Below the pieces are notes generated by a model, which saw only the letters and a list, made by a program, of their open reading frames with translations, was not told the DNA's origin and did not search any database. From a virus, in the IMG/VR virus record IMGVR_UViG_3300047509_000024, positions 1-25,419 of that record: a stretch of DNA of 25,419 nucleotides. One strand, 5' to 3'. A program made the position numbers and the translations under genes. Positions 1,204-21,711 of the stretch are shown piece after piece (the stretch's first letter is position 1; each line of letters begins with the position of its first letter).

Positions 1204-2853
1204 ATGAAACGTGCATTTTCCATTATCATTCTTTGGCTATGGTCCAGCTTTGCAATCGCGGCATGGCTTCCGCTTGCCTCTACTCAACAGTTTACTTTTT
1301 ATGTTGATAGCATCAATGGTAATAATGCTAATAGTGGTACGTCTAAATCCTCCCCTCTCAAAGATATAACATCCCTCTCTGCGATCACGAATGGGCAGAG
1401 TATAGGACTTGCGGGCGGATCATATTGGCGTCAAGAATTAAGAATTATAGCAAATAATGTAACAGTCGGTTGTTATGGTAATTGTTATTCTCGCCCAATT
1501 TTAGATGGTTCTGATCAATATTTAAATACAAATTTTACTAAAACTGGTGGTTTGACAAATGTTTATCAAACTACAAGTATTACATTTGCTGCTGGTAGCA
1601 CAGCAGCATGGATTAATGTATTTGAAACTGGTGGACCGGGAGATAATGCAACAGGTTCTTTTTTAAATTTTGTTGCTAATAATGCTACTGTTGATAGCAC
1701 ACCTTGTAGTTATACGATTTCAGGAATGACACCAGACGGTACATTACCTGCTACTGGTCAAATTTTTATACATGGTTGTGACCCTGCTGCACTTAATTTG
1801 ATTACAAATGGCTATGTTTACGAGTTTTCGAACCGTCCAACCGGGCTCTACATTCAAGGCAATAACCCCATTGTCACCGGTATTGAGACGCGCAAAAGCG
1901 CAGACGATCTCGGTTCGCTTCAAGTTCAAGGTGATGGTGCGGCGGCTACCTTTACCAATGTACTGGCGCGCGATGGCGGTAAGCACAATGCGTTTGCGCC
2001 TTGTGGCTCTACGGTAACGGGATCATATTTTGTTAATGGCTATTACTCGACGACCGTTGGTAATCTGCTGGTGTTCTTCGATAACATTGGCAGCGGCAAG
2101 CCGCTCTCGGTAATTGGAAGCTTTTTCCAGCAAGATCAGACCCTCGCTGGCGCTAATCCGACAGCGGCGCTTCAGCACACCGGGAGCGGCAATTGTGGTG
2201 CCGTTACTTTCAATTCCAATTGGCTAATTGCAAAGAACAGCGCCAATCTCAGCGGGATCGCGTTCTCGAACGTCAGCAGCATCTCCACCAACGGTAATTT
2301 TGCCAGTCAGCTTCAAAACTATATTTCGCCCGGCATCAACATGACGGTGACGAACGATCAATATGTCAGCGATCTAAATAACAATACGCCGGTTGTCGCA
2401 ATCGCCAATAATATAACCCTAACATTAGTCGGCGCAAAGATTTGTAGCAGCCACAATCAAAATGGGCTGATTTTTAATAACGCAAGTACTGGATTAACTT
2501 ACAATATTACTAATAGTCTGCTTTATCTTAATACACCTTTATCAGGTGCGTATCCATTCGCAATAGCTTTTCAAATTGGAGCAGCAATTACTTTAAATGT
2601 AAATGGAAGTAATTTAGGTTCTGCTAATTCTGAATTTTATAACTACAACATGTTCGTTGGCGGCAATACCTTCACCGGAAACAACAATATTTACGAGTTG
2701 TCGGCCACGACGCATTGGGTCAAAGATGGCAGCACGTTTAATTCGCTAGCTGCATGGAAGGCGGCTGTATCACCACAAGATGCTGCTTCTGTGACTACAG
2801 GAGGAAATGCTGTATCAGCTTGTACTTTACCAACAATTCCAGTGATTTTATAA
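1204..2853 (+). CDS. Right-handed beta-helix tail-spike-like protein with signal peptide
   Basis: This 549-residue protein begins three bases after the previous stop. Residues 1-19 form an apparent Sec signal peptide: basic MKR, hydrophobic IIILWLWSSF, then AIAA. The start of the mature part, FYVDSINGNNANSGTSKSSPLKDI, is the typical entry of right-handed parallel beta-helix (pectate-lyase-like) proteins, including many phage tail spikes. The body is rich in Asn, Thr, Gly and Ser with repeated NN and short hydrophobic strands, as expected for beta-helix rungs. I see no recognisable catalytic motif, so glycan depolymerase activity is only possible. Base composition is a mosaic: about 1805-2440 is GC-richer, while about 1440-1800 and 2440-2640 are AT-rich. 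The next gene (GIY-YIG) starts two bases after the stop. A host-surface-binding spike is the likely role; a secreted host-like protein is the alternative. Confidence 0.65.
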   Translation: MKRAFSIIILWLWSSFAIAAWLPLASTQQFTFYVDSINGNNANSGTSKSSPLKDITSLSAITNGQSIGLAGGSYWRQELRIIANNVTVGCYGNCYSRPILDGSDQYLNTNFTKTGGLTNVYQTTSITFAAGSTAAWINVFETGGPGDNATGSFLNFVANNATVDSTPCSYTISGMTPDGTLPATGQIFIHGCDPAALNLITNGYVYEFSNRPTGLYIQGNNPIVTGIETRKSADDLGSLQVQGDGAAATFTNVLARDGGKHNAFAPCGSTVTGSYFVNGYYSTTVGNLLVFFDNIGSGKPLSVIGSFFQQDQTLAGANPTAALQHTGSGNCGAVTFNSNWLIAKNSANLSGIAFSNVSSISTNGNFASQLQNYISPGINMTVTNDQYVSDLNNNTPVVAIANNITLTLVGAKICSSHNQNGLIFNNASTGLTYNITNSLLYLNTPLSGAYPFAIAFQIGAAITLNVNGSNLGSANSEFYNYNMFVGGNTFTGNNNIYELSATTHWVKDGSTFNSLAAWKAAVSPQDAASVTTGGNAVSACTLPTIPVIL

Positions 2854-2854
2854 T

Positions 2855-3466
2855 ATGCAATTACAAAATAATAATCAACTTGAATTTCCTGAAAAAAGCG
2901 GTATTTATGCTATTATAAATACTATTAATGAGAAGCACTATATTGGTAGTGCAATTAATTTTAAAATTCGCCATAGATTGCATTTTAATACTTTAAAAAG
3001 AAATGAACATAAAAATCAAAAACTTCAAAATTCTTGGAATAAGAATTGGCCTTTTCATTTTATATTTGTTATTTTAGAATATTGTGAAAAAGAAAAATTA
3101 ATTGAACGTGAACAATGGTGGATTGATAGATTACAGCCTGAATATAATATAGCTAAAGTAGGTAGTGTTTTAGGTCATAAACATAATGATATAACCAGAG
3201 CTAAAATGAGAGCTAATTTTAACAGATCAGAAAAAACTAAAAAAAGACGTTCTCAAAGTAAATTAGGAAAAAAACAAACACCAGAACATATAGCAAAAAT
3301 GATTGCTGGTAAGAAAGGATTTAAACATTCTGAGCAAACTAAACAAAGAATGTCTGAAGCAGCTAAAAAGCGAGGAATACAAGAAAGTTTAAGAATTGGT
3401 CATAAAAAATATTTTGAAAATAAATATAAACTAGAACTGGATACTAAATGTCTGATCCAGTTTTAG
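2855..3466 (+). CDS. GIY-YIG homing endonuclease with NUMOD3 motifs
   Basis: This 203-residue protein has an N-terminal GIY-YIG nuclease domain. G16-I17-Y18 and Y29-I30-G31 are visible, followed by an Arg at 39 for catalysis, the metal-binding Glu at about 86 in REQWWIDRL, and N98 in PEYN. The C-terminal half carries three or more NUMOD3-type DNA-binding repeats, seen as KHNDITRAKM, KQTPEHIAKM and KHSEQTKQRM. This is the layout of free-standing phage homing endonucleases, which cut a target allele and spread by repair. No good Shine-Dalgarno sequence precedes the ATG, which is one base after the spike stop, so translation is probably coupled. Its last 19 bases overlap the start of the terminase gene. 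Residues 9-14 (LEFPEK) closely resemble residues 6-11 of terminase (LEFPER), suggesting the element sits in the terminase start region. Strongly AT-rich. Confidence 0.9.
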   Translation: MQLQNNNQLEFPEKSGIYAIINTINEKHYIGSAINFKIRHRLHFNTLKRNEHKNQKLQNSWNKNWPFHFIFVILEYCEKEKLIEREQWWIDRLQPEYNIAKVGSVLGHKHNDITRAKMRANFNRSEKTKKRRSQSKLGKKQTPEHIAKMIAGKKGFKHSEQTKQRMSEAAKKRGIQESLRIGHKKYFENKYKLELDTKCLIQF

Positions 3467-4836
3467 AATTTCCAGAACGTTTAAGTTTCCTACTTTTTGA
3501 AAGCGCGCGACTTAAAATTGCGTTCGGTGGTAGAGGCGGGGGCAAAAGCGAGAATTATTGCAGAGCTTTAATACTTTTATCTCGCACTAGAAAGCTTCGT
3601 ATTTTATGTGGGCGCGAGTTTCAAAATTCAATTGATGAGAGTGTTAAAGCAACTATTGAAGCTAATATAGAGGAAATGGGATTAGAAAGCGATTTTTTAA
3701 TTTTAAAAAAACAAATCGTTTGCCGTTCTACTAGTAGTCGTTTTATCTTTATGGGTTTACGATATAATATTAGTAAAATTAAATCTATGGGTAGAATTGA
3801 TATTTGTTGGATAGAGGAAGCAGATAAAACTTCAGCAAATACACTTGATAAGCTTTTCCCCACAATTCGCGGTAGATCAGACTTAGAAGAAGATAAAGGC
3901 GGTCCTTTTGGTAATGGCCCTGAAATCTGGCTTTCGTTTAATCCTGATTTAGAAGATGATGAAGTTTATAAGCGATTTGTTTTAAATAGAATTAAATATG
4001 CTCCTGAATTTGTTACTGATGCTAAAGGTAATCAAGTTAGATATGCAATTGTAACTAAAATTAACTATTGGGATAACAAATGGTTTCCTCCTGATCTTAG
4101 AATGGAAATGGAGGTTATGCGAAATGCAAGTGAAGATAAATATCTTCAAGTGTGGGAAGGAAATACTAAGCAAGTTTTAGAAGGTGCTATTTATGCTGAA
4201 GAATTACAACAGGTAATTAAGGAAGGCAGACGCGGACATATTCCTTATGATCCTAATAAGCCTGTTTTAACATTTTGGGATTTAGGACATTCTGATAAAA
4301 CTGCTATTTGGTTTGTTCAACGTGCTGGTGTAGAATTTAATGTTATCAATTACTATGAAGATAGATTAAAAAAGATACCATTTTACGTTAAAGTTTTAAA
4401 TGATCTTGGTTATAATTATAGTGTTCATAATTTGCCGCATGATGGTTCTGCTGAAACAGTTTCTAATATTACTCCTGAAAAGCAGTTGAGAAAGGCTTTT
4501 CCAAACGCCACAATAAGAATTATTGACAGGCCAGCTAAGAAAGCTTTAGGTATTAATGCTGTTAGAAGTCTATTTCCTTTGCTGAATTTCGATGAAGAAA
4601 ATACTTCAAATGGTTGGCAATGTCTCTCACGCTATGCCTACAAAGTAGATGAAGAAACAGGAGTATTTAGTAAAGAGCCTGAGCATGACACGCCTTGGTC
4701 ACATGGTAGTGACGCTCTGCAAACGATGGGACTTAGTATTAAGTCAGAAGCAGATGAAAAGAAACCAAATAAGCGTGATCAAATTAAAGAGCGAGTTAGG
4801 CAAGGTAATGCTAATAATTGGATGGGAAGTTTATAA
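3448..4836 (+). CDS. terL: Terminase large subunit (DNA-packaging ATPase/nuclease)
   Basis: This 462-residue protein powers DNA packaging into the procapsid and cuts the concatemer. The N-terminal ATPase shows Walker A GGRGGGKS at residues 27-34, a Walker B strand IDICWIEEA around 117-125 with the catalytic Glu at about 124, and the GREFQNSIDES segment typical of the Terminase_3/PBSX-type family. The C-terminal nuclease domain supplies D278 (FWDLG), D332 (PHDG) and D422 (SHGSDALQT), the expected three acidic metal ligands. Length is normal for the family. The start at 3448 gives the usual LEFPE-type N-terminus and overlaps the end of the GIY-YIG gene by 19 bases, so it may depend on translational coupling. 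No small terminase gene is recognisable in this window. A 50-residue ORF follows with a TAATG overlap. Confidence 0.95.
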   Translation: MSDPVLEFPERLSFLLFESARLKIAFGGRGGGKSENYCRALILLSRTRKLRILCGREFQNSIDESVKATIEANIEEMGLESDFLILKKQIVCRSTSSRFIFMGLRYNISKIKSMGRIDICWIEEADKTSANTLDKLFPTIRGRSDLEEDKGGPFGNGPEIWLSFNPDLEDDEVYKRFVLNRIKYAPEFVTDAKGNQVRYAIVTKINYWDNKWFPPDLRMEMEVMRNASEDKYLQVWEGNTKQVLEGAIYAEELQQVIKEGRRGHIPYDPNKPVLTFWDLGHSDKTAIWFVQRAGVEFNVINYYEDRLKKIPFYVKVLNDLGYNYSVHNLPHDGSAETVSNITPEKQLRKAFPNATIRIIDRPAKKALGINAVRSLFPLLNFDEENTSNGWQCLSRYAYKVDEETGVFSKEPEHDTPWSHGSDALQTMGLSIKSEADEKKPNKRDQIKERVRQGNANNWMGSL

Positions 4837-4988
4837 TGCGAGAACGAGATTATAAATATCATTTAGAAATGATGCTTAAAGAATTAAATGAATTAAAGTT
4901 TGATAAAGGTACTCGTGATAATTTATTTATTGATAATGATGAAAAGCAAATCTTAATTAAATTAATAGAAGAAAAATTAAATGCCTGA
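4836..4988 (+). CDS. Small hypothetical protein between terminase and portal
   Basis: This 50-residue ORF starts MRERDYKYHLEMM in a TAATG overlap with the terminase stop. It ends eight bases inside the portal gene. The product is highly charged (Lys, Glu, Asp) and predicted helical. It has no motif I recognise. It fills exactly the gap between two essential genes with overlaps at both ends, the pattern of a translated gene. It may simply keep ribosomes moving into the portal cistron, or encode a small assembly factor. Base composition is AT-rich like its neighbours. Confidence 0.6.
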   Translation: MRERDYKYHLEMMLKELNELKFDKGTRDNLFIDNDEKQILIKLIEEKLNA

Positions 4989-7900
4989 TCTTAACGATTG
5001 GTTCACAGAAGATGAAAAGATAGTAGAGGAAGCGCAAAAGCGTTTTCGTGCTTGTGAAGATTGGGAAAGTCAGGCATGGGCAAACTTTGAATATGATTAT
5101 AAATTCGCTAATGGCGATAGCGTTAATATGTTTCAATGGGATAATTGGGTTATTGGAGATAGATTAGATCAAGATAGACCGTGCCTCACTATCAATAAAA
5201 CAATGCAGCATAATCTGCAAATCATCAATGATGGTAAGCAGAATAAGCCGGGAGTAAACATTCGTCCTGTTGGTGATGAAGCTTCATTTGATGCTGCTCA
5301 AATATTTGAGGAGATTTGTAGGCATATTGAATATATCTCAAGTGCTGAAAATATTTACGATAAAGCATCAGAGTTTCAAGTTATTGGTGGTATAGGTTAT
5401 TGGCGTATTATTACAGATTGGGTTGATCCTGCTAAGGGATTTGATCAGGAAATTTATATTAAGGGAATTAAACATCCTAGATCAGTTAGGCTTGATCCTA
5501 ATATAACTGAAACAGACGGTTCTGATGCTCGCTTTGGTTTTATATTCAATGATATTCCAAAAGATTTATATGAAGCTGATTATCCTGATTTTAAAGATGT
5601 TGGCGGCAGTGGTGTTTTAGGTAATACTTCTGATGGATGGTACACTAGGGATCATGTTAGAGTAGCTGAATATTTTAGAAAGAGTAACAAAAAGGATAAA
5701 TGGATTTGGTTTATTTTACCAGAAACTAAAGAAGAAATTGACGGATATTATTCAAAATTAAAGAAAGAAAATCCTGAAGGAATTGCTTGGTTTGAAGCAA
5801 TTAAGAAACACGAAAAAGATAAACCTGTTGAGGAAAGAACCTATCGCGAAAGAGAAGTTACTTTAAATAATGTTGAATGGTTTAAAATTGCTGGTAATAA
5901 AATAATTTCTAAAAAGCCTTGGCTTGGAAAATATATCCCAATTGTTCGTATTGTGGGCTTAGAAACAATTATAGACGGTCAATTAGATCGTAAAGGCCAT
6001 ACCAGAGCATTATTAGACCCACAGCGCATCTATAACGTCAACCCTTTAGCATTGAATACTTTAGTACCAACTCCTAGTGGTTGGTCTACGATGGGAGAAT
6101 TAAAATCTGGCGATTATGTATTTAATGAATGTGGTGAACCTGTTAAAGTTGTAGGTGAAAGTCCTATATTTCTGCAACATAAATGCTATAGAGTTGAATT
6201 TACTGATGGCTCACATATTATAGCTGATGAAAATCACCCTTGGATAGTAGATGAAAAAAGATCACAAAAAGATAAATATGGGAATCATTTTAATGAAACT
6301 TTAAAATTAACTACTAAAGAACTTAATTCTTCTCATAGAATTTGGTCTACACAATCATTAAATATGCCTGAAATTGATTTACCAGTACACCCATATATAT
6401 TAGGGCTATGGCTTGGTGATGGTGTAACAGTAAATAACAGAATTTCTACTTGCCTTGAAGATTTAGATGAAGTTATAGAAAATATTAATAGTTGTGGGTA
6501 TCGCGCTGGCAATCCAGATATTAGTAAAAATTCAAATTGCGCTAGCTTAACTATTCATGGATTAAGAGAAGGTTTGAGAAATTTAGGTCTTTTTGGTAAT
6601 AAACACATTCCTAATATTTATCTAAGATCATCAATAGAACAAAGATTTGCTCTATTACAAGGTTTAATGGATACAGATGGGCATTCTTCTATAAATGGAA
6701 AATGTGTATTCAATAATTCAGATAAAAGTGTCATAAGTGGAACTGCTGAATTAATTAGATCATTAGGGATTAGAACATTTATTCAATGGTTTGAAGCTAA
6801 AAGAACTACTTTTCCGAATGGAATTACTAGTGATATTCAGCCTTTTAGTAGAATTAGATTTACTGCAAATCCTGAAGTTCCTATTTTTAAATTAAAAAGA
6901 AAGGCTATTAATCACAGTAAACCTAGACTTACTCATGAGCGTAGAACCAAATATCATGTTATTAAATCTGTAACAGAAGTACATTCTGTTCCAGTAAAAT
7001 GTATTACTGTAGATAGTTTATCGCATTTATTTTTAGTTAGCGAAAGCATGATTGCTACTCATAACTCTAGCGCGAACGTAGAATTTGGAGCTTTACAGAC
7101 TAAATCTCCTATTACCGCTTCTGGTGATGCGATTGAAGGTTATGAAGAATATTATAAAAACGCAAATATAAATAATCCTGCTTGGCTTCCATTTAATGCT
7201 TATGATGATGAAGGAAGGCCGTTACAACCTCCTTCTAGGATGGAAGCTCCAAAAGCTTCTCCTGCTTATGTGCAACAGATGAAAATTGCACAAGAAGAAA
7301 TGATGATGGTGTCTGGTCAATATCAGGCACAGATGGGAGAAAATGAAAATGCTAAATCTGGTGTTGCTATTAATCAAAGGCAACGTCAAGGTGATAGAGC
7401 TACTTATCACTTCTTAGATGGTCAAGGTATTGGTATTCGATACACTGGAAAACAATTGATTGATTTAATGAAGATTGAAGCTAAGGATGGATCAATTATT
7501 AATTTAACAATTGATCCTAATCATGATCAAGCTATGACTAAACAATTACCTGATCCTAATCAACCTCAAATACCTGATCAGCCGATTGATATTATTTTTA
7601 ATCCTAATGTTGGTCAATATGCTGTAGTATCCGATACAGGACCAAGCTTTGCAACTAGACGGCAAGAAGCATTTAATGCTCTTACTCAAATTGCAGCACA
7701 AAATAAAGAATTTATGAATGTTGGTGGTGATCTTCTTTGGAAAGTTGCTGATTTCCCTGAAGCTCAAGAGCTTGCTAGAAGGTGGCGCAGACTTATTCCA
7801 CCTAATATCACTGGCGATGCTCCAAATCCACAGCTTACAGATGCTATGCATCAAGCCGCTAATAAAATTGAACAACAACTTGGTATTATTACACAACAGA

Positions 7901-8226
7901 CTAAAGAATTGGCTGATAAAAATAGAGAACTTGATCTTAGAGAACGTGAAATAGCATTGCGTGAAAAGGAAGCAGAAGCAAGAGAAAATAGAGAAGATTA
8001 TAAAGCTGAAAATCAAAGAATACAGGTGTTGGGTAATTCTGGTCCTGCTATTACACCAGAACAAATACAACCTGTTTTGCAGCAATTATTAAGAGGAATG
8101 TTAATTGCTGGCGAGCTTGATCCTGTTAAATTAGCAATGGGTATTAGAGATATTGAACATAATGCGCAAACTAGTGAAAAATTAGCTGCGGCTAATGGTA
8201 GTGCTGGCGATGCCACTCCCGCTTGA
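4981..8226 (+). CDS. P22-like portal protein precursor, intein-containing
   Basis: The portal forms the ring at one capsid vertex through which DNA enters and leaves. The 1081-residue precursor comprises N-extein residues 1-354, an intein at 355-695 and C-extein residues 696-1081. Splicing would leave 740 residues, close to the 725 of P22 gp1. Family features are the region around DRPCLTINKTM, GIGYWRI, the LLDPQRIYNVN motif before the intein and SANVEFGALQTKSP after it. Rejoining gives an uninterrupted YNVN-SSANVEFGALQ, as in intein-free relatives. The C-terminal part (about 955-1015) is a charged coiled coil containing KNRELDLREREIALREKE. The gene overlaps the 50-residue ORF upstream and the next gene downstream. 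Without splicing the portal would be interrupted at a conserved site, so the intein must be active for viable phage. Confidence 0.93.
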   Translation: MPDLNDWFTEDEKIVEEAQKRFRACEDWESQAWANFEYDYKFANGDSVNMFQWDNWVIGDRLDQDRPCLTINKTMQHNLQIINDGKQNKPGVNIRPVGDEASFDAAQIFEEICRHIEYISSAENIYDKASEFQVIGGIGYWRIITDWVDPAKGFDQEIYIKGIKHPRSVRLDPNITETDGSDARFGFIFNDIPKDLYEADYPDFKDVGGSGVLGNTSDGWYTRDHVRVAEYFRKSNKKDKWIWFILPETKEEIDGYYSKLKKENPEGIAWFEAIKKHEKDKPVEERTYREREVTLNNVEWFKIAGNKIISKKPWLGKYIPIVRIVGLETIIDGQLDRKGHTRALLDPQRIYNVNPLALNTLVPTPSGWSTMGELKSGDYVFNECGEPVKVVGESPIFLQHKCYRVEFTDGSHIIADENHPWIVDEKRSQKDKYGNHFNETLKLTTKELNSSHRIWSTQSLNMPEIDLPVHPYILGLWLGDGVTVNNRISTCLEDLDEVIENINSCGYRAGNPDISKNSNCASLTIHGLREGLRNLGLFGNKHIPNIYLRSSIEQRFALLQGLMDTDGHSSINGKCVFNNSDKSVISGTAELIRSLGIRTFIQWFEAKRTTFPNGITSDIQPFSRIRFTANPEVPIFKLKRKAINHSKPRLTHERRTKYHVIKSVTEVHSVPVKCITVDSLSHLFLVSESMIATHNSSANVEFGALQTKSPITASGDAIEGYEEYYKNANINNPAWLPFNAYDDEGRPLQPPSRMEAPKASPAYVQQMKIAQEEMMMVSGQYQAQMGENENAKSGVAINQRQRQGDRATYHFLDGQGIGIRYTGKQLIDLMKIEAKDGSIINLTIDPNHDQAMTKQLPDPNQPQIPDQPIDIIFNPNVGQYAVVSDTGPSFATRRQEAFNALTQIAAQNKEFMNVGGDLLWKVADFPEAQELARRWRRLIPPNITGDAPNPQLTDAMHQAANKIEQQLGIITQQTKELADKNRELDLREREIALREKEAEARENREDYKAENQRIQVLGNSGPAITPEQIQPVLQQLLRGMLIAGELDPVKLAMGIRDIEHNAQTSEKLAAANGSAGDATPA
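6043..7065 (+). mobile_element. Class 3 (WCT) intein with LAGLIDADG homing endonuclease, inside portal
   Basis: This in-frame insertion covers 341 codons, portal residues 355-695. Block A reads PLALNTLVPTPSGW, placing Pro, not Cys or Ser, at position 1. Block B is DGSHIIADENHPW: the usual TxxH is ADENH followed by Trp (intein residue 67). Block F is VPVKCITVDS, with Cys (intein residue 320) where Asp is usual. Block G is MIATHN with Thr 339, then Ser as first C-extein residue. Non-nucleophilic residue 1 plus this Trp-Cys-Thr triplet and Ser/Thr+1 defines class 3 inteins, which start splicing from the block F Cys. The endonuclease domain has DOD motifs LGLWLGDG (Asp at precursor 480) and LLQGLMDTDG (Asp 566), so both catalytic acids are present. 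The N-terminal boundary was chosen because removal restores continuous portal sequence. Confidence 0.92.
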
Positions 8227-9187
8227 AACTCCTGAAGGTAGATTGTATGTATCACCAAATATGCCCGTTGGTGATGGTGGTTTGCCTGTGCAACAGCCTA
8301 TGACAGAAACACCAGTTGATGACACTCCAATGGGGCAAAGAATACTTGATAGATTGCTTGGTACTAATGGGCAAGAGCGTTATCAGTTATGGCCTGAGAA
8401 GTTAGTACGTGATGCTCTATCAGCACCACATGATGTTTTAAATAGTAAAGTACCTTCTACTAGCGGTGATTTAATTAAGCCTGCTTTAGATGTATCCGCT
8501 TTAGCTGGTACAGGCGGTTTAGCAGGAGTTTCGGAAGGCGGGGCTGCTGCGCTAGGGGCTGGTCCTTTTCTTCGCCCTGCATTAAAGTATGAGGGAAAGA
8601 TTTATAAAGCTCCGATGGGCGGGGAACATATGGATGCTATTCCGGCTGATCTTAGACCGGAATTTACTAGACAAGCTATGTCGGGTGAAGATATAAGCAA
8701 TTTTAATTTTGGTTTCATGAACCACAAAGGACATTTTCTAAATAGAGAAGATGCTTTGAAATATGCAATTGATGAAGGGTTAATGTCGCCACATGATGCT
8801 AAGTTTGGTGCGTTGACAAGTACGTTGATGGCGGATAGTAGTAAACCAGCAATAGCTACTAAAGAAATGGAAAGTCTGTTAGCTAAGAAAAATAATGTTC
8901 AAATGAATAGTGATGCTGAAGTTTTAAAAAATCCAAGTAAAAAAGATATTAGAGACTTAGCAAAAGACAGCGAAAGTATTAGAACATTCACCGATAAAGA
9001 CGGAAATTTATATGCTTGGGATGGTGCTGCTGGCACTCATGAAGGTATTGCAAATTCTTTAGGATTAAAAGTTGATAATTGGGGACATTCTTGGGATAAA
9101 CATAAAGGTAAGTTAAGTACAGATATTACAAATAGCCTTGGTAATAAAGGCTATCCAAATTGGTTAGTAGATGGAATGAGATTATAA
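8210..9187 (+). CDS. Hypothetical virion-region protein
   Basis: This protein has about 325 residues, starting MPLPLETPEGRLYVSP at the ATG at 8210. A longer start at 8195 exists in the same frame but adds only five residues and lacks a better ribosome-binding site. The start overlaps the portal end by 17 bases. The N-terminal third is Pro/Gly-rich with a hydrophobic Ala/Gly stretch (about residues 85-120). The middle has GGEHMDAIPADLRPEF and FGFMNHKGHFLNREDALKYAIDEGL, and the C-terminus has FTDKDGNLYAWDGAAGTHEGIANSLGL. These phrases resemble modules I have seen in large phage polyvalent or internal proteins of unknown function. The GRLYVSP heptapeptide recurs in the 649-residue protein at 21726. 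It could be an ejected internal protein; I cannot assign a reaction. Confidence 0.7.
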   Translation: MPLPLETPEGRLYVSPNMPVGDGGLPVQQPMTETPVDDTPMGQRILDRLLGTNGQERYQLWPEKLVRDALSAPHDVLNSKVPSTSGDLIKPALDVSALAGTGGLAGVSEGGAAALGAGPFLRPALKYEGKIYKAPMGGEHMDAIPADLRPEFTRQAMSGEDISNFNFGFMNHKGHFLNREDALKYAIDEGLMSPHDAKFGALTSTLMADSSKPAIATKEMESLLAKKNNVQMNSDAEVLKNPSKKDIRDLAKDSESIRTFTDKDGNLYAWDGAAGTHEGIANSLGLKVDNWGHSWDKHKGKLSTDITNSLGNKGYPNWLVDGMRL

Positions 9188-12041: not shown

Positions 12042-12671
12042 ATGACTATTGATCCAGTAATTTATGCAATATTTAATATTGTAAATGATAAGTGTTATGT
12101 TGGGCAAGCTCTTAGAAAAAATAGGAGATTGAGCGATCACAGATGTTCATTTATTTTAAATACCCACAAAAATAAACATTTACAGGCTGCTTATAATAAA
12201 TATGAGAAAGATGCTTTTATTTATGTAATTTTAGAAAATCTATTTGATGCTTCTAATATTAATAAACGTGAGCAATGGTGGATTGATAAACTAAAACCAG
12301 AATATAATCAAGCTCCTGTCGCTGGAAGTTGTGTTGGCTTTAGACATTCGCAAGAAACAAGAGATAAACTTTCGCAAATCCGTAAAGGTAAGAAACGTAC
12401 AGGGCAAGCTTTAGAAAATATTAAGAATGGATGGAAAAAGCGAGGCCCTGTCTCTGATGAAGCTAGAGAGAATATGAGAAAAGCTCAATTAGGAAGCAAG
12501 CAATCAGAGCAAACGAAGGCAAAAAGAGCTTTGGCTATGAAAGGTAATAAAAACAATGTTGGTAAAAGACGTTCTCAACCTATGCCAAAAGAAACTAGAA
12601 AAAAGATAGGTGCTGGTAATTACGCTGCTCATAGACGCAAAAATTCTATAAAGGCTCTTGACGAAATTTAA
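12042..12671 (+). CDS. GIY-YIG homing endonuclease with NUMOD3 motifs (second copy)
   Basis: This 209-residue protein starts at the base after the previous stop. The nuclease domain has V6-I7-Y8 in place of GIY, Y19-V20-G21 for YIG, Arg at 28/29, His 33, the metal-binding Glu 77 in REQWWIDKL and N89 in PEYN. C-terminal NUMOD3-like repeats follow (RHSQETRDKLSQIRKG, SDEARENMRKAQLG, KQSEQTKAKRALAMKG, MPKETRKKIGAG). REQWWID(R/K)L(Q/K)PEYN is nearly identical to the copy at 2855, so the two are close relatives. It lies between the small genes and the coat leader, which suggests homing near the coat gene. The Gly-to-Val change in the first motif is a variation seen in active enzymes of the superfamily, so loss of activity cannot be concluded. 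It is AT-rich and shows no frameshift. Confidence 0.88.
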   Translation: MTIDPVIYAIFNIVNDKCYVGQALRKNRRLSDHRCSFILNTHKNKHLQAAYNKYEKDAFIYVILENLFDASNINKREQWWIDKLKPEYNQAPVAGSCVGFRHSQETRDKLSQIRKGKKRTGQALENIKNGWKKRGPVSDEARENMRKAQLGSKQSEQTKAKRALAMKGNKNNVGKRRSQPMPKETRKKIGAGNYAAHRRKNSIKALDEI

Positions 12672-14152: not shown

Positions 14153-14863
14153 ATGCCTAGAAAGAAATTAATCGGATTTTGCACTATTGAAGGTTGCGAG
14201 CGTCCTTTAAAAACTACAACTGGTTTGTGCCAATATCATTACAATAAAAAGAGGTTAGAAGAAAATCCTAAAAAAGCTTTTGCTGGTGTTCGTGGTCATC
14301 CTCTCTATATGATTTGGTGGGAGCGCAAGCAAAATAATTTACTTTGTTGGGAATGGACGTGTTTTGAATATTTTGTAGAAGGAGTAGGACAAAGGCCAGA
14401 AGGTGAATTTTTTCTAATGAGAATTAGAGATAGTGAACCATTTGGGCCAAATAATTTTAAATGGGTAGAACATCTAAGAAGAAAACCAAATGAAACTAAT
14501 TCGGAATGGTGGGCTAGAAAATTAGAAGCTAGAAAAAAATCTTATCCTAATTTGTATAGCGATAGAAATATCAAAAGAAAATATGGATTAACTAGAGAAC
14601 ATTATGAAGAAAAATTAAAATCACAAAATTACTTGTGTGCCATATGTGGAAAACCAGAAATTGTAATTGATCATAGAATTAATGTACTTAAAAGATTAGC
14701 TGTGGATCACTGTCATAATTCAAATAAAATAAGAGAGCTTCTTTGTAATAGATGTAATACCACACTTGGTAAAATAGAAGATAATGTAGAGCTTTTACAA
14801 AAAATGATTGACTATTTAAATAAACACAATGGAGCTATGGAGCTAGCTAATGGCCTTTGCTGA
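14153..14863 (+). CDS. HNH (endonuclease VII-like) homing endonuclease
   Basis: This 236-residue protein has three parts. Residues 10-29 form a small Cys/His cluster (C10, C15, C26, H29) that probably binds zinc. About 60-110 contain a conserved W/F/G pattern (CWEWTCFEYF, GQRPEGEF, EPFGPNNFKWVE) common in phage HNH/AP2-type homing proteins. About 150-220 match recombination endonuclease VII: YGLTREHYEEKL, C162-x2-C165, the catalytic D185-H186, and C198-x2-C201 in LLCNRCNTTLG. It cuts DNA as a free-standing homing enzyme or, less likely, resolves branched packaging DNA as T4 endonuclease VII does. Translation appears restrained by the hairpin at 14108-14146. The gene sits between coat and the next virion-region gene, overlapping the latter by 14 bases. 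Confidence 0.88.
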   Translation: MPRKKLIGFCTIEGCERPLKTTTGLCQYHYNKKRLEENPKKAFAGVRGHPLYMIWWERKQNNLLCWEWTCFEYFVEGVGQRPEGEFFLMRIRDSEPFGPNNFKWVEHLRRKPNETNSEWWARKLEARKKSYPNLYSDRNIKRKYGLTREHYEEKLKSQNYLCAICGKPEIVIDHRINVLKRLAVDHCHNSNKIRELLCNRCNTTLGKIEDNVELLQKMIDYLNKHNGAMELANGLC

Positions 14864-19708: not shown

Positions 19709-20359
19709 ATGGCCGATGGTCTTACTGCGATAGATTTAAATCAATCTGGAATTTATCAAATCAAAAATTTGATAAACGGATTAATTTATATTGGGAGTGC
19801 TACTAAATTTAGAAAAAGATGGAGTTTACATAAATGGCAATTAAATAAAAATATTCATGAAAGTCGGCATTTACAATACGCTTGGAATAAATATGGTTCT
19901 GAAGCTTTTGAGTTTAAAATTCTAGAATATTGTGATATTCAATCTTTACAAAAAATTGAACAAGCTTGGTTAGATTGGACAAACTGCTATGATCCAAAAA
20001 TAGGTTATAATATTTGTAAAGATGTTGCTAAAGGCAGGCTTGGTGTTAAATCTTCTCCTGAGCATGTTGCAAAAATTAGTAAGGCTCATTTGGGTCAAAA
20101 ACGCTCTAAAGAAGCTTGTGTAAATATAGGTTTAGCAAAAATCGGTACAAAATTAACTGAAGAACAAAAACAAGCTAGGCGAGATTATAGACACACTAAA
20201 GAAGCAAAAATGAAAATTGGAGAACATTCAAAAGGAAAACAATATAGATTAGGATTAAAATCTAGTATAGAAACTAAAGAAAAACTTAGTGAAATTATTA
20301 GAATTAGATATGGTAATTTGCCATTGAATTTAGATACTTCAAAAAGGCTTGAAATCTAA
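19709..20359 (+). CDS. GIY-YIG homing endonuclease with NUMOD3 motifs (third copy)
   Basis: This 216-residue protein starts at ATG 19709 after an AAGAAGA ribosome-binding site. The nuclease domain shows G14-I15-Y16, Y27-I28-G29, Arg 35/37, His 41, and the metal-binding Glu 84 in KIEQAWLD. NUMOD3-type repeats follow (KSSPEHVAKISKAHLG, KRSKEACVNIGLAKIG, SSIETKEKLSEIIR). Here EQAWLDW replaces the EQWWID seen in the copies at 2855 and 12042, so it is more distant from them. It sits between two internal-virion-protein genes and ends in a TAATG overlap with the next gene. The first residues, MADGL, resemble MADNL at the start of the downstream gene, hinting at insertion at that gene's start. Confidence 0.9.
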   Translation: MADGLTAIDLNQSGIYQIKNLINGLIYIGSATKFRKRWSLHKWQLNKNIHESRHLQYAWNKYGSEAFEFKILEYCDIQSLQKIEQAWLDWTNCYDPKIGYNICKDVAKGRLGVKSSPEHVAKISKAHLGQKRSKEACVNIGLAKIGTKLTEEQKQARRDYRHTKEAKMKIGEHSKGKQYRLGLKSSIETKEKLSEIIRIRYGNLPLNLDTSKRLEI

Positions 20360-21711
20360 TGGCAGATAATCTTTCAGTGGATACTTCTAGTTACACTAAG
20401 CCGGTAGCTCCTCCTAATCCGTTGGATACCGTAAGTAAAGTTATTGGTATTCAACAGGGTCAACAAAATTTACAAAGTGGTGCGTTAACTATTGATAAAC
20501 AGAAGCTTGATTTGGTCAATCAACGATTTGGTGAAGTTGCAAAGGGTTTAACTGCATTAGCTACTGATCCTAATGTAGATGAAAATAAAGTTAGGCAATA
20601 TTTTCAAAATCAAGTTAAGCTTGGTTACATGCCTCCTGAAATGGCTGCAACTGCTATTAGTCAATTGCCTCCTACACAGGGATTAAAACCTCAAGAAGCT
20701 GCTGCTGCTATAAAACAACATTTAGAAACTCAATTAGCACATGCTCAAACTGTTCAAGAGGCAATTAATTTTCATTATGGTACACCCGGTACTGTTAATA
20801 CTGGTAGTTCTCAACAGCCAGTTGTAACTAGTCCTAAGTTTGGTATTCAATCAACTGGATTACCAATTCAAAATCAATTACCAACAGGAACACCCGGTTT
20901 TGATGACAATGGTAAACCGGCATTTGCGCCACCTAATCCCAATGCTGTTACTGCCCCTCCTCCTAGACCGGGAACGCCAACTGTGCCCGGTAGTGCTCCT
21001 ACACCATTACCTATAGCGCGTCCTGAAGCTGCTCCTGCTACATTTGCGCAACGATCTAGCTTTGCTCCTGCCCCGCCTCCTTTATTTGAGAAGGGTACTC
21101 AGGCTTATACAGAGGATCAGGCACAAGCTCTTGCTCGCGCGACTGCATTAAAGCCTGCGGAGCAAGCATTAAAGCTCTTGCCCGGTCTTAGGTCTGGTCC
21201 TACTACAGAAGCCTTTAATAAGGCCGTTGCTGCATTAAAAGCTAATGGTATCATTGATACCGATACTAAAAATGATCCTACAGCGATTTATCAAGAGGTT
21301 AATAAAAAACTCTCTCAATATGTAGGTAACAATCCAAATGTCAGCAGGTCCGATGCTGGTCAAGCATTAGCTGAAGCTGGCAGTCCTAGTGTTAGTCATC
21401 AAATTAGCCCTGCTTTAATTAAACTAACTCGTGATGCTATTGCATTAGATAGAGTACAAATTGCTAGACCAAATGCATTTGAAGGTAATGATTATCAGAA
21501 CTATGGAAAGCATAGAGCAACATTCCCACAATCAATAGATGAAAGAGCTTTTGGATTAGGTGATTTACCAAAGGATGAAGCAAAAAGTTTAGTTAAAACA
21601 ATGTATGATAAATATAAGAAAAATCCAAATGATCCTGAAGCAAAGAAATTCTTACGTTCTTATGATATTGCTAAGAAGCAGGGATTTGGTACAACTGGTG
21701 TTGAAGAATAA
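20359..21711 (+). CDS. Internal virion protein candidate (450 aa)
   Basis: The N-terminal third is helical (SKVIGIQQGQQNLQSGALTI, QRFGEVAKGLTALATDPNV). The middle, about residues 145-245, is a Pro/Thr/Gly-rich linker with PPPRPGTPTVPG. The C-terminal part contains LKLLPGLRSGPTTEAFNKAV, KNDPTAIYQEVNKKLSQYVG and a final helical region. The LPGLxxGPxTEAFNKAVA segment is one I have seen in phage internal or ejection-associated proteins of unknown role. No catalytic motif is visible. It lies between the DNA-transfer-type gene and another large internal candidate, where P22 has gp20 and gp16, so a role in genome ejection is inferred. The start is TAATG-coupled to the GIY-YIG gene, and a 4-codon ORF (21711-21725, MELI) joins its stop to the next start. 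Confidence 0.7.
   Translation: MADNLSVDTSSYTKPVAPPNPLDTVSKVIGIQQGQQNLQSGALTIDKQKLDLVNQRFGEVAKGLTALATDPNVDENKVRQYFQNQVKLGYMPPEMAATAISQLPPTQGLKPQEAAAAIKQHLETQLAHAQTVQEAINFHYGTPGTVNTGSSQQPVVTSPKFGIQSTGLPIQNQLPTGTPGFDDNGKPAFAPPNPNAVTAPPPRPGTPTVPGSAPTPLPIARPEAAPATFAQRSSFAPAPPPLFEKGTQAYTEDQAQALARATALKPAEQALKLLPGLRSGPTTEAFNKAVAALKANGIIDTDTKNDPTAIYQEVNKKLSQYVGNNPNVSRSDAGQALAEAGSPSVSHQISPALIKLTRDAIALDRVQIARPNAFEGNDYQNYGKHRATFPQSIDERAFGLGDLPKDEAKSLVKTMYDKYKKNPNDPEAKKFLRSYDIAKKQGFGTTGVEE

Follow-up and report, generated by a model that had tools for sequence, protein, structure and literature searches.

The portal gene of a metagenomic virus contains an in-frame intein, and its sequence and predicted structure very probably identify it as a mobile element of class 3 whose host is a P22-like portal gene and which would be removed by protein splicing and propagated by homing. 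The window analysed here is the whole virus record of 25,419 bases, which is classed as linear and is possibly a fragment; it consists of one metagenomic contig of 25 kb. The portal precursor ORF (4981..8226) encodes 1081 aa, or 740 aa after the predicted splicing, and like all portal and intein features of the window given below it lies on the + strand. It comprises the N-extein (residues 1-354, 4981..6042), an intein of 341 aa from Pro1 to Asn341 (precursor residues P355-N695, 6043..7065), and the C-extein (residues 696-1081 and the stop codon, 7066..8226). The intein starts with PLALNTLVPTPSGW and ends with MIATHN, followed by Ser696 as the +1 residue (7066..7068).

The portal flanks match the Pfam family P22_portal (PF16510, E 2.9e-119) and phrog_156, and the 740 aa portal formed by joining them matches the PDB entries 7sfs (8.5e-26) and 3lj5 (4.8e-18). 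These significant matches, to the family and to solved structures of P22-type portals alike, identify the host as a P22-like portal. The gene belongs to a cluster of head genes, in which it is preceded by the terminase large subunit and followed by the scaffold and major head protein.

Several other genes of the window were recorded. Two free-standing GIY-YIG/NUMOD3 homing endonuclease genes are found at 2855-3466 and 12042-12671 (Pfam E 2.6e-9 and 1.6e-9), one of which overlaps the 5' end of the gene for the terminase large subunit; counting the LAGLIDADG domain of the intein, the 25 kb hold three homing-type nucleases. A 236-aa protein with a C-terminal recombination endonuclease VII domain (14153-14863; PF02945, 5.2e-21) is encoded inside the head cluster, directly after the major head protein gene. 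The interval between terminase and portal contains no ORF of 80 aa or more, unlike that of the nearest intein-free relative, L022, where a 223-aa ORF (1995-2666), by eye a cell-wall hydrolase, occupies this position. The large ORFs at 1204-2853, 8195-9187, and 20359-21711 gave no Pfam match, and the first two gave no PHROG match either.

The boundaries of the insert were determined from intein-free relatives. In about 70 of them from IMG/VR, the nearest being 75-76% identical, YNVN/SSANVEF is continuous, the two exteins abut, and there is no gap at the junction in DNA or protein. In L022, for instance, the matches to the N-extein (2667-3731) and C-extein (3732-4913) are contiguous DNA. When 30 portals without and 13 portals with an intein were aligned, the 37 columns around the site contained zero gaps. 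These gap-free empty sites therefore fix the junctions at Asn354/Pro355 and Asn695/Ser696. The initial annotation had described the same insert (6043-7065, 341 residues, with the Cys at precursor position 674 and a spliced portal of 740 aa), and all of these coordinates were reproduced. An N-terminal junction at a Cys, Ser, or Thr was also sought against the intein-free portals, and the empty sites place it at Asn354-Pro355. As initially proposed, the insertion lies within the conserved portal motif DPQRIYNVN/SSANVEF, and by conservation the site ranks in the top 1.6% of the portal's 22-residue stretches. Exact in-frame removal of the insert restores the host portal, its frame is open throughout with no stop or frameshift, and the predicted fold is of the HINT type (Z 15-28 against inteins), with a terminal Asn341 preceding the Ser. 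The presence of an in-frame intein in the portal gene is confirmed, with matches of insert and flanks far stronger than chance would give, and, judged from its sequence, the intein looks intact.

According to PMC5050341, class 3 inteins are defined by the lack of a nucleophile at position A1 and by the WCT triplet, whose residues occupy blocks B, F, and G; Cys, His, and Thr form their catalytic triad (PMC7664689). Residue 1 of the window intein, as set by the empty sites, is Pro and offers no nucleophile. Alignment with relatives and with 6bs8 places W67 in block B, C320 at position 4 of block F, and T339 at position 5 of block G. Block B, H65-P-W67 (6235..6243), supplies the catalytic His together with the Trp; block F contains Cys320 (precursor Cys674, 7000..7002), the predicted initiating nucleophile; and block G contains Thr339-His340-Asn341 (7057..7065). 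H65, W67, C320, T339, and N341 are invariant in alignments with class 3 relatives. The motifs ADENHPW, VKCITVD, and ATHN and the +1 Ser named in the initial annotation were all found in the translated insert. Pro1 was also considered as a special feature, which was dropped because 20 of the 80 relatives share it.

The class 3 DnaB inteins with solved structures, from Mycobacterium smegmatis and M. chimaera, are matched at both ends of the insert (phmmer E 3.6e-23 to 3.9e-21). In the AlphaFold2 model of the intein (mean pLDDT 88.5), the splicing domain is nearest to 6bs8 from M. smegmatis DnaB (Z 23.6, 1.1 Å over 126 residues, 40% identity), with 6riy and 6rix next; among class 1 mini-inteins the highest score is Z 20.1, for gp41-1 (6qaz). 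The nearest relatives by phmmer and by structure are thus class 3, and the relatives found by profile carry WCT. An NCBIfam search returned nothing useful. With the sequence hallmarks all present and the closest sequences and predicted fold both class 3, the original reading of a class 3 (WCT, Pro1) intein in a portal is supported.

The intein also carries a LAGLIDADG homing endonuclease domain at about residues 109-299 (6367..6939; Pfam Hom_end 3.1e-8, LAGLIDADG_3 1.2e-5). Motif 1, PYILGLWLGDG (6391..6423), and motif 2, LLQGLMDTDG (6652..6681), keep their catalytic Asp126 and Asp212, respectively, each invariant in the alignments. PI-SceI, a full-length intein with endonuclease, aligns to the whole modelled chain (Z 28), and I-Tsp061I aligns over modelled residues 109-299 (Z 15.2). 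The endonuclease looks intact.

Comparison with known systems shows what sets the window intein apart. It shares with the mycobacterial DnaB inteins 6bs8, 6rix, and 6riy the absence of a residue-1 nucleophile, the WCT triplet, and the Cys-His-Thr set, and their splicing domains are 40-41% identical and superpose within 1.1-1.7 Å. However, those are mini-inteins without a LAGLIDADG domain and occupy a helicase Walker A site, whereas the window intein has such a domain and a portal as host. The class 3 inteins of the terminase large subunit, DnaB, and RecB/Cas4-like nucleases, described in mycobacteriophages and others (PMC5050341), are full-length inteins with LAGLIDADG domains and are 35-39% identical to it over the whole length; they sit mostly at the GK|S/T Walker A motif of ATPases, while the window intein sits in a non-enzymatic ring protein. 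Portal inteins (PORT) are reported in C1 mycobacteriophages by the same paper, in the text consulted without a class. They resemble the window intein in their host gene, but the C1 example Cane17 has Cys at residue 1, lacks WCT, and is located in a portal unrelated to that of the window. The Cys1 and the missing triplet assign the Cane17 intein to class 1.

Portals turned out to host class 3 inteins recurrently. Searching IMG/VR with a class 3 intein profile yielded 80 loci; in 12 of them (11 distinct, since L126 and L127 are nearly identical) the intein interrupts a portal at the motif used in the window. All 12 precursors match P22_portal, and these loci include the nearest relatives of the window intein (38-46% identity). 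A second profile search added L202, whose host was recognized as a portal by its flanking motif and alignment. IMG/VR therefore holds, beyond the window, 12 distinct portal class 3 inteins at 13 loci (L120-L128, L131, L179, L181, and L202), all from uncultivated phages, with the same host family, motif, and LAGLIDADG domain as the window and at 39-46% identity. Gap-free alignment revealed two insertion registers. In one, represented by the window, L128, L131, and L202, the intein follows YN-x-x, whereas in the remaining nine of the 12 the insertion point is exactly one codon later. Both registers have Ser, Thr, or Cys at +1 (13 of 13 distinct portal inteins, with the window). The registers are not separated in the intein tree, and a single origin for the window's register was not rejected (AU p 0.21). 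One guess is that the shift arises from a free residue 1 combined with the requirement for a nucleophile at +1.

The portal host had been suggested to be perhaps unprecedented, a view that the C1 mycobacteriophage portal inteins and the 12 further metagenomic class 3 portals led us to revise. As far as checked, what appears to be new is the P22-like portal as a recurrent class 3 site with two adjacent registers. In the open-access literature we found no report of this uncultivated-phage group or of any class 3 intein in a portal, a weak absence given that surveys of class 3 host genes were covered in part; one such source lists 1701 class 3 inteins, with host genes not given in the section consulted (PMC7891396). 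A search of 50,697 phage records gave terminases, nucleases, and a helicase of at most 37% identity among the matches listed (the best 60 and 60 spread over the 749 matching records), with no annotated portal, so close kin of the portal lineage seem absent there; the L120 intein as query gave a concordant result. A degenerate DNA pattern combining the portal motif with LAL[DN]T..PTP had zero matches in IMG/VR, which is uninformative because the pattern requires Ala3 and misses true portal inteins such as that of L202 (PLSL). A single-sequence scan of genome contigs found one distant match, after ..HDYK and outside a portal. The best plasmid match, L200, was rejected as a portal intein since it sits in a terminase-like motif of the VFMKGAQVGG type. 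Together with L136, L140, L145, L148, L158, L160, L161, L163, and L166, it belongs to a set of Pro1 class 3 inteins at Q-x-G-[AG]/PL..THN/TE, apparently the terminase Walker A site, where Ala or Gly, rather than Lys, precedes the intein. One intein of this set comes from an Endozoicomonas record of 39.5 kb that is labelled as a plasmid.

Intein and portal histories appear to be decoupled. In the portal tree, the sister of the window, L022, is empty (full support), and the starred branches force at least six intein gains or losses. Identity to the window stays at 39-45% for the inteins but spans 25-51% for the portals. The L202 portal belongs to the clade of the window (99% support), yet the L202 intein pairs with that of L122 (96/92). 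This pattern fits homing between phages, and the sporadic distribution of the intein accords with an endonuclease that would cleave intein-free alleles. The G+C content of the intein is 30.8%, compared with 34.8% and 37.7% for the flanks, which lends weak support to a foreign origin.

Whether the window intein descends from one portal-site lineage or reached the portal independently, so that the motif was hit twice, concerns its history alone and is compatible with the class 3 mechanism either way. Independent arrival is possible but rather doubtful in our estimate. In a 104-row tree and a careful 49-row tree the other portal inteins form a cluster to which the window does not belong, and its register, one codon earlier, is common only to L128, L131, and L202. 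Against this, the inteins with the highest identity to that of the window are from portals (L120 first, at 45-46%), a pruned tree groups it with them in a starred set of 14, of which 13 are from portals, and the likelihood improves slightly when all portal inteins are constrained to group (AU p 0.55). The pruning and the AU test led us to abandon the reading of the first intein tree as proof that the window intein arrived independently.

On the class 3 mechanism, the precursor would fold and Cys320 would attack the Asn354-Pro355 bond with the assistance of His65 and Thr339, producing a first branched thioester. The N-extein would next be received by Ser+1, and cyclisation of Asn341 would release the intein and leave the 740-residue portal joined as YNVN-SSANVEF. 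In mixed infections, the LAGLIDADG domain would cut intein-free portal alleles, and repair would copy the intein in. We infer the dependence on Cys320, splicing, and endonuclease activity, as well as the need for splicing ahead of ring formation. The residue at -1 is Asn in the window versus the Lys usual at Walker A sites, and the first step could be slowed by having Asn-1 and Pro1, the latter common among relatives, on either side of the scissile bond. The intein might instead be of class 1 or 2 and merely resemble class 3, for instance with a direct class 2-like attack by Ser+1 and an incidental block F Cys. The lack of a residue-1 nucleophile is indeed a trait that class 2 shares (PMC5222942), but the full WCT triplet, a Cys invariant across class 3 relatives, and a nearest sequence and predicted fold that are both class 3 make this highly improbable; nor does the intein group with the lone class 1 outgroup in the tree, although the branch of this outgroup is very long. 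Equally hard to credit is a degenerate, splicing-dead insert that leaves the portal broken or its function to another copy: splicing activity is a prediction from sequence and a second portal gene could lie elsewhere in this incomplete virus record, but the open frame, the intact catalytic residues and both LAGLIDADG Asp, and flanks 75-76% identical to an intact relative, as expected under selection, argue otherwise.

Portals form the ring by which phages package their DNA and usually comprise, in order, a wing, a stem helix, a clip, a second stem helix, and a tunnel loop. The junction falls in the middle of a predicted helix (residues 343-364 in L022, junction 355/356, block pLDDT about 89-93), which by this order is probably the first of the two stem helices. 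With 341 extra residues in such a helix the ring should be unable to form, and splicing is therefore presumably required before portal ring assembly. A broader proposal is that this P22-like portal helix, probably a stem helix, is a preferred class 3 target, hit repeatedly in two registers one codon apart, and that splicing gates ring assembly and hence capsid formation; we consider it unlikely as a whole.

Most known hosts of class 3 inteins are enzymes that act on DNA, and the insertion is often at a Walker A motif. The window element stands as a well-formed class 3 intein by its predicted features and is added to this class. A class 3 set in a ring-forming structural portal suggests that essentiality and conservation suffice for hosting, and that enzymatic activity is unnecessary. 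Since the unspliced domain should block the ring, capsid assembly would report splicing. The one-codon shift among related inteins would offer a natural case of insertion-site drift with residue 1 chemically unconstrained.
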